NCBI GenBank assembly: GCA_026929865.2
Contig: CM049408.1
Location: forward strand, 1,612,001-1,676,000
Origin: Hyperoplus lanceolatus
Taxonomy: Eukaryota > Chordata > Actinopteri > Uranoscopiformes > Ammodytidae
Length of the DNA: 64,000 nucleotides
Direction: 5' to 3'
Shown here: positions 21,163 to 34,857 of the stretch, one piece after another
Numbering within the stretch: position 1 is the stretch's first letter
How the letters are laid out: each line of letters opens with the position of its first letter
Notes under the pieces: generated by a model
What the model was told of the DNA's origin: nothing
Seen by the model: only the letters and a program-made list of their open reading frames with translations
The model's database searches: none
Position numbers and translations under genes: made by a program

Positions 21163-21699
21163 TAAGATAAATACTTTTTGTATTACACTTTGTCTACAAA
21201 TTTAATAAAATATGCAAATAAGGCAATATCTCATTCAATATGCATAGCCTATAAACCCTTTAGTAGAGGTCCTGGATACGATTTATTATGAGAAATACTT
21301 TTTGTATTACACTTAGTCTAAAACATTTAATAAAATATGCAAATGAGGCAATATCTCATTAAATATGCGTACACACAGTACGTATTAGGTTGACTGTTTT
21401 TTTGCCATTTTCATTATATATCAAATCAGAATGTTTACACTCTTCTATTACCTTATAATCTCTGTCATTGTGAACATTGTGATCCCTCAGAAAATCTGTA
21501 ACTTCAAGGGTTTATATGTACGCATATTGAATGAAATATTGGCTAATTTGCATATTTTATAAAAAAAAATAGACAAATTGTAATACATTAGATTTTGGCA
21601 CACATCCTATGTTGTTCAATGGGGTCATATTAGTCTATACCAGTTGATATATTCTTCGCTAAATGAAGTGCATACAAATCGTATCCAGGACCTCTACTA
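21163..21699. mobile_element. palindromic MITE with 24-bp perfect terminal inverted repeats
   Basis: 21,261-21,284 (TAGTAGAGGTCCTGGATACG...) is the exact inverted repeat of 21,676-21,699. Just outside and inside, an ~85-bp unit is tandemly repeated (21,163-21,248 and 21,290-21,372) and part of it recurs inverted near 21,505-21,590. Non-coding. Confidence 0.75.
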
Positions 21700-22721
21700 A
21701 GGGTGTATTCACACATGCTGTGTTTAGTTCGGTTGAAACGAACTCAGGTGCACTTCCACCTTCGGTGCGCATCTTTCAGACAGGTGTGAATATAGCAATC
21801 GCACTCGGGGGCGGACCAAACAAACGCTCCGAGACCCAGCTGAAGAGGTGGTCTCGATGCGCTTCGAAACGCACTCTGCTGCAGTTCGTTTGTGGTGTGA
21901 ATTTGGCCGGACTCGATCCGACCCAATTGCAGGAAGCACTGCGCCTTTTCTTTATTTTCTTTTTTAATAAATCGCCATCAGCTTCACATTATGGGAAAGT
22001 GTTGTTGTCGCCATTGTTAGGAAGATTAGTTGTGGTTTGACCGGGAGCCCCGAGCGAAAATATTACATTTGATAATGACGCGTGCAGATCAGCGATCAGA
22101 TGGAGGCGCGTCTCCCGTAGCCTACAGTGCCAACAGGTTCACGCTGCGCTTTGCATGAAGTGTGTGTTTTTATTGTTCTTCCCAACTGGACCGTCAATAC
22201 TATCCCCGTGTCAGTTTGGTGCTGAACTGCGCTGAACTGACACCCAGCTGATACACAGCTAAATCAGCTGTGTTTCAGTTTGAGCCTATTCTTCACGCGA
22301 GCCTTGCGTCCAGCAGCAAAAATACAGTAAAAATGATGTTTCACATCGTAGGCTAGAAGCCACATAACGTGGCATTGACATGGGGCTACATATTATAACC
22401 ATATGAAACAATAATAATTTGATGTGTTTCTTCTTTATTTATAGGCTAGATGTAGGCATTTTTATTATTTTTAACCCCATATTATATCAATGATATATTT
22501 CGCAGTTTTTACTTCGTTCTTCCTGCTTCTCTCCACCCCAGAATGTATGTCCAATGAATGAATGACTTCAGATCACGTGTGGTTTTGCTTCGTATTGCTG
22601 GTTCACTTGCAAAAGGGGCAATATGAAAGTGGACCACACCAACAAAAAAAAATCCAAATTCTATTTGGTCTGGACCAAAGCAAGTGAACTAATAGACTTT
22701 CCATGTGTGAATACACCCTAA
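21698..22721 (+). mobile_element. PIF/Harbinger-like MITE, complete copy with TAA duplication
   Basis: The element body is 21,701-22,718: it begins GGGTGTATTCACACATGC and ends GTGTGAATACACCC, with TAA on both sides (21,698-21,700 and 22,719-22,721). A 3-bp TWA duplication fits PIF/Harbinger. No transposase is encoded. Parts of a second copy in reverse orientation lie at 24,336-24,652 and 32,115-32,338. Confidence 0.85.
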
Positions 22722-23038
22722 GAGGCAAAATGACTGGAAAAGGCTGATCAGGTGGTTTACAAATGAACCATTTATTTATTTACAAAAATTAATCGAAAAT
22801 GTTTATGTCCCCAAATGCCCCACTGCTATGTTTCAATCCCAGGGGAAACACTGTATATGGTTAGTTTTCTTTATACAGTATAATAACGGTATGGTGCTAA
22901 CACATTTAAATTGTACATACAGTGGAGTGGGCTGAGTTTACTCAGCCATGTGTAATAATTACTGCAATTAAGACAGAAAACCACTGAAAAAAATCAATCT
23001 TGTTAAACCTGCCGATAAAGGAGTAGCCTACAAGGGGT

Positions 23039-23407
23039 GTAGCTTGGCACCGCCCGCCTACCTACTTCTGCTCAATTTTAATTTCCCTTCAGTAGTCAGT
23101 CTGGGTCCGCGACATATTTGCGGGTTTTTCTCTGCCAGATTTTTGGCGGTCCAATCAGCGAACAGAGGGAGTGGCTGAGAACAATGACATTGCGTTTCGG
23201 TTGTAGTCAGCAGCCGGCGCCTGACATATGTCACGACCAAACGTTACGCGATTGGTTGGCAGATCCAGAGTGGCACTGGGCAGATCCAATAGTTTTAAAC
23301 TTCAACAGACACCCGCCTTCAAGTGAGTTTACGTTTGTCGTTTGAGCGATTCCAGACTTTCTGTACAAATGAAATTAAGTACAATGGTCTGGTAGGACCA
23401 AGCTACT
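23039..23407. repeat. dispersed repeat, copy 1 (partner at 50.95 kb)
   Basis: About 350 bp from TAGCTTGGCACCGCCCGCC to GGTAGGACCAAGCTA is shared with 50,951-51,230, including 'cagatccagagtggcactgg' and 'ttcaagtgagtttacgtttg'. Short inverted ends (TAGCYTGG / CCARGCTA) are visible. Non-coding; superfamily not assigned. Confidence 0.75.
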
Positions 23408-23429
23408 AGGGGTGGGCGATATGACCTAA

Positions 23430-23710
23430 TATGACTCGCTCCACCAACATGACCTGCCTCTCAAGGGTCCAGTGCCCACGCTGGCGGTAAACACAGAGGT
23501 TCTGGCTCCGTCAACGCTCTCCTCGCGTGGACAATACCCCGCACACCCAGGCCACGGTCTCTTTGTCCCACTCCCTTCGGGCAGGAGGTTGCGGTCATTA
23601 AAGACTGTAAAAACAAGACACTCTCACAGCTTTTTCCCCACGGCCATCCGACTCCTAAATGCCACTGCCATAAAAAGGCCTACATCTAGCCTATCAATAA
23701 AGCAGTGATT
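23430..23710 (+). pseudogene. LINE ORF2 C-terminal tail
   Basis: The plus-strand translation contains VPLPSGRRLRSLKTVK and HSFFPTAIRLLN. This is the characteristic end of the reverse-transcriptase polyprotein in several fish LINE clades, just before the 3' UTR. Only the last ~80 residues are present (5'-truncated). Confidence 0.75.
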
Positions 23711-24335
23711 CTTGAGAACCGGGACAAAAGGCCGTCTTCCATATGTAACTGCTGTTATGTTTGAAACTAAAAATATTTAAAATTGTAGATGTTATTAGGG
23801 ATTAAGAATAGAATGTCTGGAGCACAATTGTCCCCTTACATTTAATTGTATCATTATTATGTCAAATATATGACACTTGTTATCTTCTCACAACGTCAAA
23901 AACAGTGTGTCCTCAGAGAAGTTTTCAATCTTTCATATGCAATACAACCTATTAAAAATGTACTTTAATGATTAAAAATAGCTTTTTTCATCAAAAGCAA
24001 CACTATATAATCTCTCATATCAATAAAAACTGTTTTTCTTCAACACATTCATGTTTTATAAGGATTCTAAGTGGTGGGACAACTTTACTGAAAGTCAACA
24101 CGGTCAGACATTTCATTATGTAAAATGTAATAAAATCAGGCTAAATAAAGGGCAGCTGTCACTATGAAGGACCTCTTGTCAAATTCTACCTCTGCAGAGT
24201 ACATTAGAGTCAGACAGGCTCTGATAAGTGTTGTAGTTTTAGAATATTTTACATTCCGAATCTTGAAAGTCACACACTGACTTACAATTTCTGAAGAAGT
24301 TATTTGAAATTTTTTGATAATTTTATTTTCCTGAA
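23711..24335. other. unassigned sequence
   Basis: AT-rich and non-coding. The outer end of the MITE copy beginning at 24,336 should lie here but is not recognisable. Confidence 0.45.
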
Positions 24336-24652
24336 AGAAGAAACACATCAAATTATTGTTGTTTCATATGGTTATAAATAATATGTAGCCCTATGACAAT
24401 GCCACGTTATGTGGCTTGTAGCCTACGATGTGAAACATAATTTTTACTGTATTTCTGTTGCTGGACGTGCGGCTCGCGAGAAGAATAGGCTCAAGCTGAC
24501 ACTCAGCTAATTTAGCTGGGTGTCAGTTCAGCGCAGTTCAGCTCCAAACTGACATGGGATAGTATTGACGGTCCCGTACATGGGAAGAAAAATAAAAACA
24601 CACACTTCATGCAAAGCGCAGCGTGAACCTGTTGGCACTGACGCTCCCCTGT
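24336..24652 (-). mobile_element. PIF/Harbinger-like MITE, second copy, distal part
   Basis: In reverse complement it follows 22,440-22,110 of the complete copy closely (for example CATATGGTTATAAATAATATG, 'gccacgttatgtggcttgtag', 'gcaaagcgcagcgtgaacc'). The homology stops where the large inverted-arm element begins and resumes at 32,115. Confidence 0.85.
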
Positions 24653-24738
24653 TAGTCCAGCAGCGAGTGCTCAAAAAAGGCTTTAGTTTTCGAGATACCC
24701 CTACCCGAGGTAGAACAAACCTCAACAATGATTTTTTT

Positions 24739-24927
24739 TTTTTTTTTTTTAAGATATTTTTTGGGCATTTTTTATGCTTTATTGATAGTGCAGAGAGACA
24801 GAAGTGAAATGGGGCAGAGAGGGGAGTGACATGCAGAGAACGACCGCGGGCGGGAGTCGAATCCGGGTCTGCTGCTGGGCCCGGCCCGGGAGGGGGACGC
24901 CTTACTGACTGAGCTAAAGGCGCCCCC
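24739..24927 (-). mobile_element. tRNA-derived SINE
   Basis: On the minus strand the head reads GCGCCTTTAGCTCAGTCAGT (A-box TAGCTCAGTCAGTAAGG) followed by the B-box-like GGATTCGACTCC. The body contains 'tttcacttctgtctctctgc', AATAAA and a poly-A tail (poly-T on the plus strand). It is flanked by the direct repeat AACAATGATTTTTTTT at 24,724 and 24,928. The corresponding position in the right arm (near 32,050) holds a single AACAATGAT and no SINE. Confidence 0.93.
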
Positions 24928-26056
24928 AACAATGATTTTTTTTATCTTTAGAATGTCCTGTTCATGAAATTGATTCTTGAGCACTTTTATCTTTGGGCGA
25001 AATGTGTTTTTTTGGTTATCCTTTAGAACTACCCCAGTCCCTCAAAAAGAGCCAAATTAGGCCATTCCGAATAGGGGATATGTGAAAAAAAAGCCCATAA
25101 CTTGGGAATGCTCACTCTTTTCTTCATCAGATTTGCTGAGGTACTAACCAGGTGTCTGTCCCTCATCACCAAAAAGTTAGAATGTAATTTACCAAAACAT
25201 TTATTGAAATAGAGTCCTGTATACATAGCTTTAGTTTAGGCGGAAATGGTACTTTTGTGGTGATAGGAAAAGAGGGTTCCTTTACTTTTCTCTCAAATAT
25301 CACCAAAACATAAATCCCTGCCAAATATACCATTTATGTATTGTCTAGGATGCTATGGAACTATAACCAGTGGTTGTATGAAGATATCTATTACAGTTCA
25401 ATTTCTAATGAGATTTTTCTAGAAGTACTCCTCCACTGAAATAGCCATATTAGGACATACCGAATGGGGGATAGGTGGCTTAATAGCCTATAGTCCAGCA
25501 GATATGTGAATGCATTGTGCTTTTTATGATACAAACATCAGCTTTGGCACACTGTTAGAGCATGCCCTAAGGAAGATTTTTGGCATTGGCATTTTCGGGC
25601 ATTGCCAATTTTTCCTATGGCGCCCATGGCGGCCACTTTTAAAAATGGCCACCAGCAGCTCTTATAGTACCAGTAGCTTGGGTTGTAGAGCACCTAGGAT
25701 CTTGATTATGTTGTCTAATCCTATAATTTCAAGGATGGATAAAGCAGTGGTGCTATAAAACAGGCTAGAAAGTACCCAACTTCATATATCTGGCATTCAG
25801 GGAACACAATTGTGGTAAAACCTTCAAATATTAGCGGAGTTATGCATATTTTCATGAATTACAGAATCAGTTCATGAGCTGTATGCTGACCTTATATTGT
25901 AAGCATATAAGGTCAGCATACAACTAAAGTAAATATCTTTTTCAAAACTTGAACAATACATCAGTTTAGCCTGTTTGATAGGTTGCTATTTTATCCGTGT
26001 AACCCACCTAGAGTTAACATTGCTCTAGGTTCCGAAGGAGTTAAGTGATATAAACA

Positions 26057-27614
26057 CTCAAAGTGGTGACAGACCATCTGAGTTACCTTGGGGTTTGTTT
26101 TACCAGAAATTTTAAAAACCTACTTAAATTTAACTTCCTCAAATTATTGGATCAGGCGAAGCAAATATTATCGAAGTGGTCTCCTCTGGCTTTCTCTCTC
26201 ATAGGCAGAATAAATTCAATTAAAATGACATTACTCCCAAAGTTCCTATATCTATTCCAATGTCTCCCCATCTTTCTTCCCAAATCCTTTTTTCAGGCCC
26301 TTGACTCTTTAATGATAAATTACATTTGGAATGGTAAACATCCTCGGTTACGGAAAGCTTTTCTTCAAAGACCCAAACAAACGGGTGGAATGGCTCTTCC
26401 TAATTTTCAATACTATTACTGGGCGGCTAATATCCGTTCTCTAATGTATTGGGTGCATTTTCACCTTGACGACTCAGCCCCAGTCTGGGTAACAATGGAG
26501 TCCAGCGCTATTAGCCCATTGTCTCTATCTGCCCTCTTAAGCGCCGCACTTCCACTCTCTTCGGCTATTCCCAACAGTAGTCCTGTGATTAAGCACTCCC
26601 TTCGAATTTGGACCCAATTTAGGAAGAATTTTGGAATGCAGAATTTTTCACTTTTCAGTCCAATTGCAGCTAATCATTTGTTTACTCCCTCGACTGTGGA
26701 TGGCGCATTCAAGATCTGGCATAAAAAGGCTTAAAATGTATCGGTGATTTATTTATTAATGATCTATTTGTTAGTTTTTCTCAATTGACAACAAATTTTG
26801 GTATAGAAAAGACTAATTTTTTCCGATATCTGCAAATCAGGAATTTTACGCAGAAGTTAATTCCCCAATTCCCTCACAAACCGCCAGCCAATCATGTCGA
26901 TTTGTTTTTTTCTGTAAACCCCACATTAAAAGGCTCAATTTCTGTGTTTTTCAACCTTATTTCGAAGTTGCATAGCCCCTCATTAGCAGCTATAAGAACC
27001 CTGTGGGAGCAGGACCTAGGTTCTGCCTTCACAGATCACATGTGGGATTCAGTCCTGGATCGGATACACTCTACCTCCATGTGCGCCCGACACGCTCTTG
27101 TGCAATTTAAAGTAGTACATCGTATCCACATATCTAAAACTAAACTAGCTCGTATGTTCCCCGATGTAGACCCGACCTGTGATAGCTGTAAGAGCGCACC
27201 GGCATCACTCTTTCACATGTACTGGCTATGTCCCACCTTGAGTGGGTTCTGGACATCAGTTTTTCAAACTATGTCTGAAGTACTTCAACATCAAATCGAG
27301 CCGAACCCTTTTACTGCTATTTTTGGCATAGCTCCCAATTCAGGCTTGCCTAAGGTGAAGCTAAAGGTACTGGCCTTTATCTCTTTGCTTGCTCGTAGAG
27401 CTATCTTGTTCAAATGGAAAGATCCTGCCCCTCCCTCCCACTCTCATTGGCTTAGAGACATTATGTCATGTATGAATCTGGAGAAAATTCGTTGCACTGC
27501 CCATGAATCTGAGACTAAATTTTATAGAATGTGGCGCCCTTCCTGGACTACTATGAGAAGCCGACCACAATGGTTGAGGAGTAGCTACCCCCTCCCCTTT
27601 TTTATTTGATATAA

Positions 27615-27689
<75 letters not shown>

Positions 27690-27897
27690 TTCATATTGGT
27701 TGTTTGTTTTTGTTTCTTGTGTGTGTTTGTGTTTCTGATGCAGGACTGTTTGTGATTGGGTGGGATATGGGTGGGGTATGTGCGGGAGGGAAAAAAGGGG
27801 GAAAAAAATTAATAATCCATTGTATTGCAGCTGCATGATAGTACTTTGTGATTTAATAAAAAAACCTTTGGAAAGACAAAAAAAAAAAAAAAAAAAA
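26057..27897 (+). pseudogene. 5'-truncated L1-type LINE, ORF2 C-terminal region
   Basis: Two plus-strand blocks (26,063-26,734 and 26,785-27,609) encode the part of an L1/Tx1-type ORF2 downstream of the reverse transcriptase: YLGVCFTRN, SLIGRINSIKMTLLPKFLYL, MINYIWNGKHPR, TGGMALPNFQYYYWAANI, then the zinc-binding CDSCKSAPASLFHMYWLC near the end. A stop/frameshift around 26,734 separates the blocks. The 3' UTR has AT and T tracts, AATAAA near 27,855 and a poly-A tail. Target duplication AAGTGATATAAACA is at 26,043-26,056 and 27,898-27,911. The endonuclease and reverse-transcriptase domains are absent, so this copy was dead on arrival. Confidence 0.93.
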
Positions 27898-29039
27898 AAG
27901 TGATATAAACAGTTACCACAATGAAAGTACCAGGCAAGGTAGGTTGCAAGCAGTAACATTTACTCACATAAAGTTGTAGGTAACACCCAAAACACATATG
28001 CATATAAATCATTTTACAAAATTGGCCTAATTCTACTTGTACAAGAACGAGGAATGCATTGGTACTATTTACAACATACATACATACTGGCATTCAGTGA
28101 ATTAAATAACAATAAAACCATCAACACATTTATAATTATTTCTGAAAACACAGTCCACCACAGGGGCAAAGTGCATGGAAGTGCTGCCTTGGCACATTTG
28201 CAATGTCCACTGCACCCCTTTTTACATCCACAGCAGAGGAGTTTACAACAGGCCTGTATCGATCCTGGTAGTGTGGCCCAGTGAAATTCCCATCTGCCTG
28301 TGGCCTTCCACTTCCACCCCCATTCACCTGGTGATGGGAGTTCAGGGGCTGAAACCATCATATGTCCCCAACAGTGAACAGCTTGGTAGACAGCCCTCTT
28401 TTTGTATTGAATCAGTGCTGCTTGTGTTGGAAGTCCCTCAATTGATGTTCCTTTCTGGGTGAAGAGCTGCTTTCTTGCCTAATACACAGATTCCTGGCTG
28501 CTGGTGTGGTCATATAGCAATACAACACATCTCTTCAGAGGCTCCATCCAGTTGTCTATGGAGTCAGGTGTGGCAGCAAATGCACAGAAGGCTTTTGTGA
28601 CATCTTCAAAGTTCCCCCATGTATCCCACGCATTTTTCTTACCCCTGCCACCAAAAGATGACACTGTGTCACATCCAGTAAAAGCATGGAACCGCGGCAA
28701 GGCGATACATCATTCTGGACCTAGTGCCGTTGCCATCTTGTGTGCTGCTACATGCCGAAAACTCTTTCCAGCTCCAAAGGCAACCCACAACTCATTGATG
28801 TTGAGAGAGTGGGCTGCAGTCACTGCCAGTACTAACACATCTGTGTCAACTATGCATATTGATACACTGTTATACCCTTCCTTCACAGCATCTCCAAGGT
28901 GCAGTAGTATGCGGGTATCAGCCTTCTCATGTGTGCATAGTGCAAGAACTTCTACATCTCGAGGCTGAGTGCAGAGGAGTTCAGCATGATGGGAGCTAAT
29001 CACTTGTTTTTCAGTGTTGATGTCTGTCAGGCACTTCAG

Positions 29040-29150
29040 GGAGTTCGTAGAAGAGTTGAGCCGTCAAGTGCCATTCCTGAAAAAGTTTTTGCGCATTGAC
29101 GACAACAAGGCTGAACTGTTCTCCTTCCTGGCATCTATCTTGCTGCGTGT
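29040..29150 (+). pseudogene. inverted coding segment inside the nuclease gene
   Basis: Here the plus strand, not the minus strand, encodes the expected part of the protein: VPFLKKFLRIDDNKAELF followed by SFLASIL. In the family, as I remember it, a segment of this kind (FLRIDDNK-ELF-FLA) lies between the SLKAETR segment and the DTDKQVIS segment. Both neighbours are on the minus strand at 29,160 and 29,020, so only this ~110 bp has flipped. Confidence 0.7.
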
Positions 29151-29795
29151 TTCCGCCTTTAAACTGTCAGAAAAATATTGATCCCACATAACATCCACTC
29201 TGCTGACATGCTCCAGCTTAGACAGCATGTATGGTGAGAACACCTTCTGTGAATATTTAGAAAAGGTCTCAGCAGCACCAGGTCGTAGCATGTTTACGAG
29301 CCCCATCAAGTATGTTGACCTGTACAATGGGGTTGGATTTGTTCCCTTGTGATGAAATCAGGTTCGCCAAACAGCCCACCAAGTCTGACTTGGTTCCAGT
29401 TCTTCGCTTGCCCATTTGTGACAATGCCAGTGGACATGCCTGGTTTTTCGAGCTAAAAGAAACTCATCCAGACTTCCATCACGTATCTGGGATACAATAA
29501 TTAGCCTTGAGAACAGGGAGCAGTCACTCTTCAGGGATGAGAGCTGTTGTTAGGACCTGGAATTCTCTCGGACTGGAGGCCGGCTGAATAAAGGGAGGTT
29601 GTTCCTTTTGATGTTTTCTTTGATTCGCTTTGTCTGGTTGATCAGGCGTTCACTGACATAGGCGTCATGCTGGTCCCGTTCAAGTTTCTCAACCTGGTTG
29701 ACAGTGTCAATGACTGCTTCATCTGCAACGTCCCTAGTATCCAGTACAAGAATATCTACAGTGCTCTTTTCACAGAATGGATTGCCCATGTCTTC

Positions 29796-29900
29796 TACAC
29801 TCACCGACCACGTTATGAGGTATGAGTTGCTGCTCTGCTGATAGGTTTTATGTGTTAACAAGAAAACCGCTGTACCTAATAAAGTAGCCAGTGAGTGTAT
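29796..29900. mobile_element. 105-bp MITE inside the nuclease gene
   Basis: Inverted ends CACTCACCGACCACGTTATG and CTAATAAAGTAGCCAGTGAGTG flanked by TA; same family as 13,190. It splits the reading frame. Confidence 0.85.
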
Positions 29901-30949
29901 AGCGCTAGTTAGTTCTTTAACTTCTCTTGCAAACGCCAATTGTGCATGTTTGGTCTACTCGACATCAGGATGTGTGTCCTACAAGTGGACTGGTGTCCAT
30001 CTGGCATAGTGGGTGTGTTCCAAAGCAAAGAACCAAGGCACGATCTTGGTCAGTGCATCTATTTAGAGTAGGAAGTTGGCCTCTCTTATTGATCCCACAT
30101 AGATCATTTACTCTATTTCCAGCTGCAGGACAATGGACCAGTCGTCTAAGGACAGAGGATTATTACCCTCCTCCAGGTAATTTATATACTCGGTGAAAGC
30201 CCTCTGCAGGAGAAGATATAGGCTGCTGGCTGTGACCTGATGAGCATGGCAGGGGTGTCACGTGACAGGCTTTCATAAAGGAATCGGCTGTCCCTGTTGT
30301 AGCAACTCCAGCTTGCACAAGTGCTCCTGTCCACACGCTACCTTCCAAGATGACGCCAAGTACCTTGACTGCTGCCATCTCAATGTGGAACCCACCAAAC
30401 ATCACAATAAAGTTATCTTCACCATGAGCTGCTGGCCAAGTCCACTGGATTTGTTTTGCCACTGCATACAGAGGTTGATCCAGAGTGATGATTGATACCT
30501 GACCAGGATTCAGAATATCCACTGCCTTCTTCACCACATTCATAGAATGGCGAATCATGGTAAACGGTTTTGGCTTGGTCATAGAAAAGGGGAAGTAAAC
30601 ACTACATTATGTGGTGTTAACAATGTTGTTATGCTTCAGTATGATTATTGTATAACATTTACACGTAGTGAGATCCACTGTGAAGATCCCTCTCCATTCA
30701 GAGCTCCCGGTGTGATCCTTCCAGGACGAGGAACCGACTCCACATGTGGTAGGGCCGTACCAGTCGCCAGGATACACACATCCATTGGACTACTACACAC
30801 ATCCTTTCCAAGAACTGTCACAGGACCAGTAAAAGACAGTTTAACAGAGAACCACTGAGAGTGATTGATTAACCGAAAATGATCACAAAACATACAGACT
30901 AAAAGGACTATTGACAACACTTGTTTATTTTAAATGGCCCATGTTTTTA

Positions 30950-32109
30950 TTTTCAAATAATGAACAGTATATGCATATGTGTTTTGGGTGTGACCTACAA
31001 CTTTATGTGAGTAAAAGTTACTGCTTGCAACTTACCTTGCCTGGTACTTTCATTGTGGTAACTGTTTATATCACTTAGCTCCTTTGGAACCTAGAGCAAT
31101 ATAAGGTCAGCATACAACTCATGAACTGATTCTGTAATTCATGAAAATATGCATTACTCCGCTAATATTTGGAGGTTTTACCACAATTTTGTTCCCTGAA
31201 TGCCAGATATATGAAGTTGGGTAATTTCTAGCATGTTTTAAATAGCACCACTGCCTTGTCCATCCTTGAAAATGTAGGATTAGATAACATAATCAAGATC
31301 CTAGGTGCTCTACAACCCAAGCTACTGTAAGAGCTGCTGGTGGCCATTTTTAAAAGTGGCCGCCGTGGGCGCCATAGGAAAAATTGGCGATGCCCGATAG
31401 CCAAAAATCTTCCTTAGAGCATGCTCTAACAGTGTGCCAAAGCTCATGTTTCTATCATAAAAAGCACAATGCATTCACATATCTGCTGGACTATAGGCTA
31501 TTAAGCCACCTATCCCCCATTCGGTATGTCCTAATATGGCTATTTCAGTGGAGGAGTACTTCTAGAAAAATCTCATTAGAAATTGAACTGTAATAGATAT
31601 CTTCATACAACCACTGGTTATTGTTCAATAGCATCCTAGACAATACATAAATGGTATATTTGGCAGGGATTTATGTTTTGGTGATATTTGAGAGAAAAGT
31701 AAAGGAACCCTCTTTTCCTATCACCACAAAAGTACCCTTTCCGCCTAAACTAAAGCTATGTATACAGGACTCTATTTCAATAAATGTTTTGGTAAATTAC
31801 ATTCTAACTTTTTGGTGATGTGGGACAGACACCTGGTTAGTACCTCAGCAAATCTGCTGAAGAAAAGAGTGAGCATTCCCAAGTTATGGGCTTTTTTTTC
31901 ACATATCTCCTATTCAGAATGGCCTAATTTGGCTCTTTTTGAGGGACTGGGGTAGTTCTAAAGGATAACCAAAAAAACACATTTCGCCCAAAGATAAAAG
32001 TGCTCAAGAATCAATTTCATAAACAGGACATTCTAAAGATAAAAACATCATTGTTGAGGTTTGTTCTACCTCGGGTAGGGGTACCTGAAAATCTGAGGGC
32101 CCCTCCTGC
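30950..32109. repeat. right inverted arm, uninterrupted
   Basis: About 1.16 kb that mirrors the left arm and retains the pre-insertion sequence at both sites hit in the left arm: 'aactgtttatatcacttagc' near 31,060 (L1 site) and 'aacatcattgttgaggtttg' near 32,045 (SINE site). The open frame at 31,758-31,955 is the mirror of one at 25,029-25,226 in the left arm; both are just repeat sequence. Confidence 0.88.
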
Positions 32110-32114
32110 TAGTC

Positions 32115-32341
32115 TATCTCCTTCATCTGATCGCTGAACACATCAGCATGTTTACGCGTCTCTATCAAATGTAATATATTTGCTTGGCCTCCCGGTCAAA
32201 CCACAACTAATCTTCCTAACAATGGCGAAAACAACACTTTCCCATAATGTGAAGCTGACGGCAATTTATTAAAAAAGAAAAGAAAGTGCACCTGAGTTTG
32301 TTTCAACCGAACTAAACACGGCAGGTGTGAATACACCCTAA
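32115..32341 (-). mobile_element. PIF/Harbinger-like MITE, second copy, terminal part
   Basis: Reverse complement of about 21,701-22,110: 'gtcaaaccacaactaatctt', 'cacctgagtttgtttcaacc' and the end GTGTGAATACACCC at 32,338 followed by TAA. Its other half is at 24,336-24,652. Confidence 0.88.
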
Positions 32342-34857
32342 GACTGTCTGGAAAGGTCTGAGGGCATCTGGTGGACAATAGGAGGATGGGATGTCTGGCG
32401 AAATTGTGAGAGCTCTGTAAGAGAGAAGTGAAAGACTGAGAGGGACTGGAGAAAGGGAAAATGGCAGTGGCATTCTTTGTGACTCCAGATGGTAAATGTC
32501 AAATGCAACAAACTGCATTAATTATATGACAGAGTTGAAAGTGATAGGAAATTATAATGCATCGCGTGTGCCAAAACAACTATGCTTTTATAACAATATT
32601 TCACCCTCCACTGTTATCTAACCACAGAGATTTGAATCATGATGAAATTGTCTCCCTATGTGACTACCAGAGAGTCTGGACTATTCTGAACTCCAGAACC
32701 CAAAAGCTCTTTCTCTTCTTCCCCATGTCTCCTATTGGACTGTAAGCCTGATCAGTGGCGTGGCGTGGGGATTTTTTTTGAGGAAGCCAAGTGAGACAAC
32801 ACCTTTAATCTACATGTGTAATGGAAGGTGGGGGACAGAAAAGAGTAGGCTACGTCGCAGCTTGTATTTAATGTAACTACAAGAGCTATTATAGCGCCTG
32901 GTCACTTTACCAGGATTTTCACACGCCTGTAATCTGTCCGACACCGCTCTTTCGCTCTCTCTCTCCCTCACTCACTCTCTCACTCACAAACCTCCTAATC
33001 GTTTTATTAAATTATACATTTTATTATAAATGCACCCCCCACCCCGACCGGAATGCACAACTAGCCGCTTAATGCCCAATACAGATTCGAATTCATTCAC
33101 AATATAATTAGGGGACGTTTTAGGCTATTTTAAGTTTCACGTTCACGTGAGACACGACTCACATAATCAGTTGTAGGTGCTTGACATACACACATACTTT
33201 CTATGCATCCTTTTCGTTTAAGAACTAGGCCAAATGTTCATTATACAACACTACTTAAGACAACCCAGAACAACTTCAGTGGATATACAGTAGGCCTACC
33301 AATGCAACTTAATCCAGGCAATCAAGGCACAATTAGCAGTAAAATAACACAAAACATAACACACATAGCTACACGGACAGTTCAGGGAACAGTTAACCCG
33401 CGCCGGGAGAAGGTGTGTATTTTACTCACTATTTGTAGAGGAAGGCCATTAGCTGAAGATTGCCGCTACCAGCTAGCCACTCGGTGCGGATTGTTCTCCT
33501 CATTGAAAGTGCGATAAACTTTCTTTCTCTCCACACGCATTGGCCTGCCGTCAGATTTGATTTTTAATGGCTCCTCAATTGGCAGTTTGGTAAAATAATG
33601 TTTTACTAAATAATCAAAATATCCACCCTCCATAACCAGGGCTGCCAAGTTTCACCAAAAGTTTGGAGTGAGACATATTGTAAGTGGGGGTCTGGGGTTC
33701 CCCCCCAGAAAATTTTGAGCATTAAATACTTAATTTCCTGCAATCTGGTGAATTTTTATGAAGCAATGTGTGCCTTTTCTGCATTCATTTTTATGTAAAG
33801 TAAAAGAGAACATTCACGGTTTCGCTGACACAAATTTAATTGAATAGCCTACAATGCATGTGTAGTGCTTTCAAATATCTCCTGTAGCCTATTGTTAAAA
33901 CATTTGGTTAAACTGTAATAAAGGTAATTATTCTATATGTATTCAACATTGTATGGGTTATCCAATTATCCAATTTCAATTCACCATTATTATGTTAAAT
34001 CTATGACACTTGATGTCTTCTCAGAACATATTTTTCCCACAGTTACCTCTAAGCTTAGTTACTCAATACATTCATTCAATTAATGTTGACAACATTTTAG
34101 AACAAAAATGTGTTGGTGTGTCAACCAGCCCAATAACATAATGCAAAACAAGCTTGAATATATCAAGTGAAGTGACTGATTTGAATTAAGGTGTTCTTAC
34201 CTCTTTGTTCATTTAATACCGGCGTCCTTGTTGTCATTAATTTTCCATATAATTTGAACAAAGGGCGGGACTGGGAGGCGGCGGTCTTTTATTAGTTTTG
34301 TAGTGTAATGCAGGGGGGCGTGGCCGTGGTGTTTTGCCAAGTGGCTGCTGCGGCAACGGCTGCACACGGCCATGGATATTGTCCATGCCATGGACCTATA
34401 AAGAAACCACGCGTGCAGAAAGCATGGCAGAAAGAGGATGTCACGGAACTCAGTCCGTTTAGCTTTTCAAAATAAGACTTTCAAAGTAAAAGTACCAAAA
34501 AAAAAATATATATATATTACGGGGATTCATTTCTCTGCGTGAGCAATTGGAGGTGTGGCATGTGAGCGTGTGAACTGGTTGATATGCGTGTGTCTCACGG
34601 CCAAAGCGTGAGACTTGGCCGCTCTGCATAACTGTTCTTGCTAATATGATAACAATGCAAACATGCTAATCTCCCGCTATTGTTATTGTTGTTAAATTTC
34701 AGTGACGTTGATAGTGATGCTTTGATTTGATTGGTGTGAAGCCAAGGGCCGAGTGGCTTCCCTTAGCACCCTCACGACACCTTCCTGACCAATCACAGGA
34801 GGGCAGTGTCAAGACAATAGCCTCACCTGATTGGTCAATCCTTCTTTCTTTTTTTCA

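Follow-up and report, generated by a model that had tools for sequence, protein, structure and literature searches.

A dead, probably Academ-type transposon copy in Hyperoplus lanceolatus and the FEN1/EXO1-like domain of its intact relatives

The window (the whole stretch of 64,000 nucleotides of Hyperoplus lanceolatus DNA that was analysed) very probably contains a dead and apparently non-autonomous transposon copy of the AcademX type, the intact relative of which combines a DDE region, a FEN1/EXO1-like nuclease and a CXC tail in one protein. The features of this copy are listed in Table 1.

The 806.7 Mb genome was searched with a 117-aa query from the window (E ≤ 0.001). At least 138 matches were found (150 of 186 candidates scored), ranging from siblings of 93% identity to remote copies in which long frames are open. 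A query taken from a distant copy in turn gave 92 matches in the same genome. One relative, L009, contains an uninterrupted frame of 1536 residues (protein P0002), which sits between matching TAGTACAGCGGATAAG ends that are, from their positions, ~6.4 kb apart. L009 and L145 (C10:19914900-19921311) represent a structurally complete copy, and the combination of a complete frame, matching ends and a 3-bp duplication points to rather recent transposition in this lineage.

Table 1. Coordinates of the transposon copy and its parts, in positions of the window. Sibling counts include the window.
Feature	Position	Strand	Basis or remark
Degenerate DNA transposon copy, probably Academ-type, later insertions included	24653..32116	- (gene strand)	Termini
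Left terminal inverted repeat, split by later insertions	24653..28006		Self-comparison and terminus
Right terminal inverted repeat, about 1.15 kb	30968..32116		Self-BLAST and terminus
Transposase-like (DUF6589-like) remnant, P0002 residues 640-874	29961..30594	-	tblastn
C-terminal remnant including FEN1-like nuclease, P0002 residues 981-1527	28170..29798	-	tblastn
FEN1-like domain, first half	29181..29307	-	ORF list, tblastn pieces, family alignment
D34-equivalent (ILDGA), codon	29307-29305	-	Frame now differs from that of D86-equivalent
D86-equivalent (MWDQY), codon	29183-29181	-	Frame now differs from that of D34-equivalent
Internal inversion, P0002 residues 1218-1268	29080..29232	+ (opposite to gene)	tblastn, E 0.004
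FEN1-like domain, second half	28479..29063	-	Motif letters, conservation in relatives
HEKAD	28931-28917	-	Within second half of FEN1-like domain
DTD	28847-28839	-	Within second half of FEN1-like domain
In-frame TGA	28712-28710	-	Carried by 6/9 sibling stretches
GCD and helix-hairpin-helix signature	28676-28623	-	Within second half of FEN1-like domain
In-frame TAG	28481-28479	-	Carried by 3/9 sibling stretches
CXC cysteine-rich tail, CCKLLCCGCKKGCSGHCKCAKAALPCT	28170..28250	-	Letters; window piece itself without Pfam match

The copy is bounded by long inverted arms. Self-BLAST of the window paired positions 24924-25899 with 32059-31097 (95.5% identity) and 27898-28006 with 31076-30968 (97%). 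The right terminus, ...GCTAGTCTA, lies at 32116, and homology ends at this point in the window and in 7 of the 10 loci printed; one other locus stops a few bases earlier, whilst two are in another register and were not used. The left terminus is at 24653, where TAGTCCAGCAGC is similar to the corresponding ends of three sibling copies. The inverted repeats of this group of elements are long, with TAG ends, and the termini of other families start TAGTACAGCGG, TAGCCCAGCGG, TAGTCCAGCAG and TAGTGGGGTCG. Target duplications of 3 bp were found in five of the seven copies scored, namely AGA (C11 copy), TTT (C3 copy), TAT (L013), AAA (L015) and TAT (L009, where five bases also fit). No duplication was found at the window copy (TGT/TCT) or the C22 copy (TTT/CTA). 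Outside this count stand L014, the right end of which is altered, and L011, L012, L018 and the C2 copy, each with one usable end.

Other candidate boundaries were rejected. The sequence TAGTCCAGCAGATA at 25491 and 31493 is not the terminus, as the shared boundary is further out, and a TAA duplication at GGGTGT ends was rejected as the transposon's own. The outer inverted arms (21697-22106 and 32117-32343) are not parts of the element but pieces of an abundant ~1-kb family with a GGGTGTATTCACAC end, lying inverted and flanking the transposon on both sides. The left terminus is directly adjoined by a separate element (22125-24640), whose inverted repeats are about 310 bp long and 88% identical. 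The left arm is itself interrupted by a LINE-type insertion at 26057-27897 (+), the limits of which were taken from the interruption of the arm. This insertion contains two frames, one of them weakly zf-RVT-like (reverse transcriptase zinc-binding region; E 0.015, below cut-off), succeeded by A-rich and TA repeats. A short insertion at about 24741-24923, also in the left arm, resembles by eye a tRNA-derived SINE, with a minus-strand box A/B-like sequence, an A-rich end and repeated ATCATTGTTG flanks; ARAGORN, run on 24600-25000, reported no tRNA.

Academ was reportedly treated by Kapitonov and Jurka in 2010 and AcademH by Kojima in 2020; the X of AcademX we take to stand for XPG. According to the excerpted text of PMC10045372, AcademX is a lineage of the Academ superfamily with target duplications of 3 or 4 bp, AcademH belongs to the same superfamily and has duplications of 9 or 10 bp, and this difference is tied to the encoded nuclease of the former and the helicase of the latter. 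The 3-bp duplications, the long inverted repeats and the nuclease fit AcademX as it is portrayed in that excerpt, and the element is probably of the Academ type. Since this membership is set by architecture, duplication length and published description, the copy might instead belong to another superfamily of DNA transposons that carries a FEN-like nuclease independently. This is unlikely, however: a nuclease cargo together with 3-bp duplications (5/7) agrees with the excerpted account of AcademX, and an element of ~6.4 kb is near the bivalve mean of 5565 bp for Academ, which is classed as a DDE/D superfamily in PMC10294476. The sequence-only reading had called a nuclease of this sort unusual for a eukaryotic DNA transposon, which is only partly true, as AcademX with an encoded nuclease had already been described (PMC10045372, in excerpt). 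The kind of element is thus a known one, and the present families may or may not be catalogued. Excerpts of the Academ literature (PMC10045372, PMC10294476, PMC8290104, PMC10799480, PMC9587614) contain nothing on the active site or role of the nuclease, and a literature search for Academ with 'XPG nuclease' returned matches that are unrelated by title.

The nuclease motif is present on the minus strand as it had been read from the letters, with one addition. A single frame across 29003..28479 gives CTHEKADTR ... IVDTDV ... (TGA) ... HAFTGCDTVSSFGGRGKKNAWDTW, and a further stop, TAG, lies at the end of the block. With stops read through, the whole loose pattern matched once in the window and in 0/100 first-order Markov windows; the GCD-to-A part by itself also matched in 0/100. 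Intact relatives mostly have HEEADTR or similar where the window has HEKADTR. In a profile alignment of the relatives (A4, see below), the second E and the D of HEEAD pair with their counterparts in EXO1 YEADAQ. The window copy has K (28925-28923) in place of this second E, at the E158 position, so that the Glu of HEKAD taken earlier for the active-site residue is not the aligning one. Seven of the eight other sibling stretches are readable at the motif, six with HEEAD and one with HEETD. Moreover, GCD had been ascribed to FEN1, whereas it is the EXO1 form according to profile alignments with PDB EXO1. Human FEN1 presumably has GSDYCESIRGIGPKRAVD at the equivalent site; the sequence used for it matches PDB FEN1 residues 1-344 at E 1e-229.

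Conservation of the domain was assessed in A4, an alignment of the core only, with 13 rows, L009 plus 12 whose identity to L009 is 20-51%. These rows were picked from the 24 of a larger alignment, A2, omitting 11 that were near-duplicates, fragments or the three window pieces. The equivalents of D34 and D86 are D in 12/12 rows with a letter, and a K93-like position is kept in the same proportion. At the equivalents of E160, D179, D181 and D233 all 13 rows have D. The E158-equivalent is E in 10 rows by column; the remaining three (L023, L025, L026) have D-A-D, which matches E-A-D only after a two-column shift made by eye. Given that shift in three rows, all seven FEN1 active-site positions are acidic in every row with a letter. 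Of the G-x-G-x-K that succeeds the last Asp, the first G is found in 8/12, the second G in 11/12 and the K in 12/12 rows with letters. Such conservation of an active site at about 20% identity argues for a selected catalytic role, as far as can be judged from sequence. L023, L025 and L026 form a divergent branch, with a hairpin (GIGKG or SVGKQ) that looks nearer to that of FEN1.

When the A4 profile was searched against 177,635 PDB sequences, 11 were listed at E ≤ 10. EXO1 took the first four places (E 0.0025 to 0.014) and 5 of the 11 overall; the other six were ribosomal S3 (three), apolipoprotein A-I (two) and the bile acid receptor, which we take to be chance. The A4-EXO1 alignment is in register at VFDg..K..R, EAD, DxD, and GCD with the hairpin, placing E-E-A-D on Y-E-A-D. 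The A2 profile placed EXO1 2nd, 3rd, 5th and 7th of 15 (best E 0.018). EXO1 was absent from the matches to a further profile wider than A4, A1, which were led by apolipoprotein A-I (E 0.001). YacP chains matched the half containing D34 and D86 at E 0.3 (A1) and 0.18 (A2), as might be expected of a PIN-like nuclease from another branch (NYN/YacP-like) that had acquired its helix-hairpin-helix independently. Such an origin is quite unlikely, since EXO1 ranks above YacP once divergent families are included (A2), and in the A4 list YacP is missing whilst EXO1 leads with an alignment that covers EAD, DxD, GCD and the hairpin.

The family was also aligned to FEN1 itself. Of a possible 82 FEN1 sequences 60 passed a length filter and 32 were kept after removal of near-duplicates (30 archaeal and two typed). 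With hhalign the score was 27.2 with L009 leading and 24.7 with L026 leading, as against a best of 20.4 and 20.8, respectively, for 50 column-shuffled FEN1 profiles and 12.1 and 15.9 for the reversed profile. Both family scores thus exceed 50/50 shuffled profiles, at an HHalign probability of only 3-5%. The L009-led alignment consists of the hairpin part only (63 columns). The L026-led alignment (159 columns) has D86, D179, D181 and D233 in register and D-A-D four columns off E158-A-E160.

Using phmmer against the PDB, the window protein had no match and P0002 had six at E 0.068 or worse, with no nuclease among them. Scanning IMG/VR, whether with the window protein or A1, gave no result. Pfam found nothing in the window pieces holding the motif, and its XPG models matched none of the window pieces, alignment rows or relatives' proteins scanned; the six matches to PF00867 in the same genome (E ≤ 1) include none at the loci listed for the family queries. 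Each single comparison is statistically weak in absolute terms and the lists include unrelated chains, as might be expected if the domain had an unrelated fold and resembled FEN1 at a few motifs by convergence or chance. We consider this very unlikely, as seven acidic positions in FEN1 order are kept down to 20% identity and 0/50 shuffled decoys attain the hhalign score. Read together, the order of the motifs, their conservation in divergent copies, the EXO1 profile match and the hhalign scores above all shuffles suggest that the domain is remotely related to the FEN1/EXO1/XPG nucleases, and as such it would be expected to have their fold and a metal-dependent nuclease activity. The proposal of a PIN/FEN-fold nuclease is thus supported as regards a remote relationship, by motifs and by profiles whose absolute statistics are modest.

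The same proposal had set this nuclease in place of a DDE enzyme, and in that respect it is not supported. Intact relatives have, upstream and in the same frame, a separate conserved region with DNIDHN, DQPLYA, G(G/E)xH and DQ..EQ motifs, and the nuclease therefore accompanies this transposase-like region and does not replace it. Pfam DUF6589 was weakly matched, always below cut-off, by 4 of 14 scanned proteins (three families, E 9e-5 to 2.5e-3), the other 10 being without any match to it. A profile of the DDE region had no match in the PDB, and a literature search for DUF6589 found no paper. From its motifs we infer that the region is a DDE-type catalytic domain, with D of DNIDHN, D of DQPLYA and E of DQ..EQ as the candidate triad. 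At the C-terminus is a CXC tail, matched by Pfam TCR/CXC in 3/24 rows (best 1.1e-5) and in protein P0003 (6e-5), whilst the N-terminus of the L009 protein has cysteine/histidine modules by eye. No helicase families are among the Pfam matches listed for the relatives' proteins; in the window, one piece gave an SNF2-related match below threshold (E 0.019).

In the window little of this protein is left intact. By tblastn with P0002, the transposase-like remnant is 57% and 41% identical (E 2e-57) and contains stops and a frameshift, and the C-terminal remnant is 42% identical over 564 columns (E 7e-114), with stops present. P0002 residues 1093-1143 fall in a separate piece in another frame, and residues 1-639 are unmatched in the window (E ≤ 1). 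The opposite-strand segment was found in 7/9 sibling stretches, the window counted, one of them weak (E 0.03). Given the unmatched 639 N-terminal residues, the stops, the frameshifts, the inversion and the Lys at the E158 position, the window copy is a dead transposon copy. That the stretch is instead a functional host gene domesticated from a transposon, in favour of which there are only two frames still open, of 117 and 76 residues, is practically excluded by this same damage, some of it common to siblings. As the TGA, the TAG and the inversion recur in some of the siblings, part of the damage arose before these copies spread. The window copy and its siblings thus seem to have been mobilised non-autonomously, by enzyme that relatives supplied. 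Taken by itself, the window copy is a case of ordinary transposon decay.

The most likely course of events in an active family can be outlined from the L009 protein, which in about 1500 residues would hold the Cys/His modules, the DDE-type region, the FEN1/EXO1-like domain with its helix-hairpin-helix, and the CXC tail. Cleavage of the ends and strand transfer would most likely fall to the DDE region, and the cutting of a branched intermediate, be it a flap, gap or hairpin located at the target or an end, to the FEN-like domain. By the time that the window copy and its siblings spread, their gene would already have been broken. A stronger proposal, which we put forward tentatively and regard as doubtful, is that this one polypeptide works with two unrelated catalytic centres, the DDE strand-transferase and a metal-dependent, structure-specific nuclease of FEN type, and that the nuclease is required for transposition, for instance by trimming the joint and so setting the 3-bp duplication. 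If this were true, trimming of a gapped or flapped joint would yield 3 bp where helicase-bearing AcademH makes 9-10 bp. A flap nuclease of the repair type joined to a transposase in one protein seems to be little explored biochemically. Because an open relative with conserved active-site positions exists in the same genome, a role of the nuclease in transposition is directly testable.

Compared with FEN1, EXO1, XPG and GEN1, the element domain has its acidic positions in the same order and the same spacing of GCD and helix-hairpin-helix, and the V-[WFI]-D-x-Y ..K..R segment of the family resembles VFDG..K..R of FEN1. It differs from them in its low identity, in escaping the Pfam XPG models and in being internal to a transposase-like protein. 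Enzymes of the FEN1 family typically begin with an MGxxGL N-terminus, and by eye no such start precedes the nuclease domain of the 1536-aa protein. Among transposons, AcademX is the closest by description, being likewise a DNA transposon with an encoded nuclease, 3-bp duplications and terminal inverted repeats in the excerpted account, whereas AcademH, with its helicase and duplications of 9 or 10 bp, is unlike the element (PMC10045372, in excerpt). KolobokP, as given in the excerpt of PMC9587614, is similar in that a DDD/E transposon carries a second nuclease; however, that nuclease is a His-Me finger homing endonuclease, unlike the FEN1-like domain of the present element.
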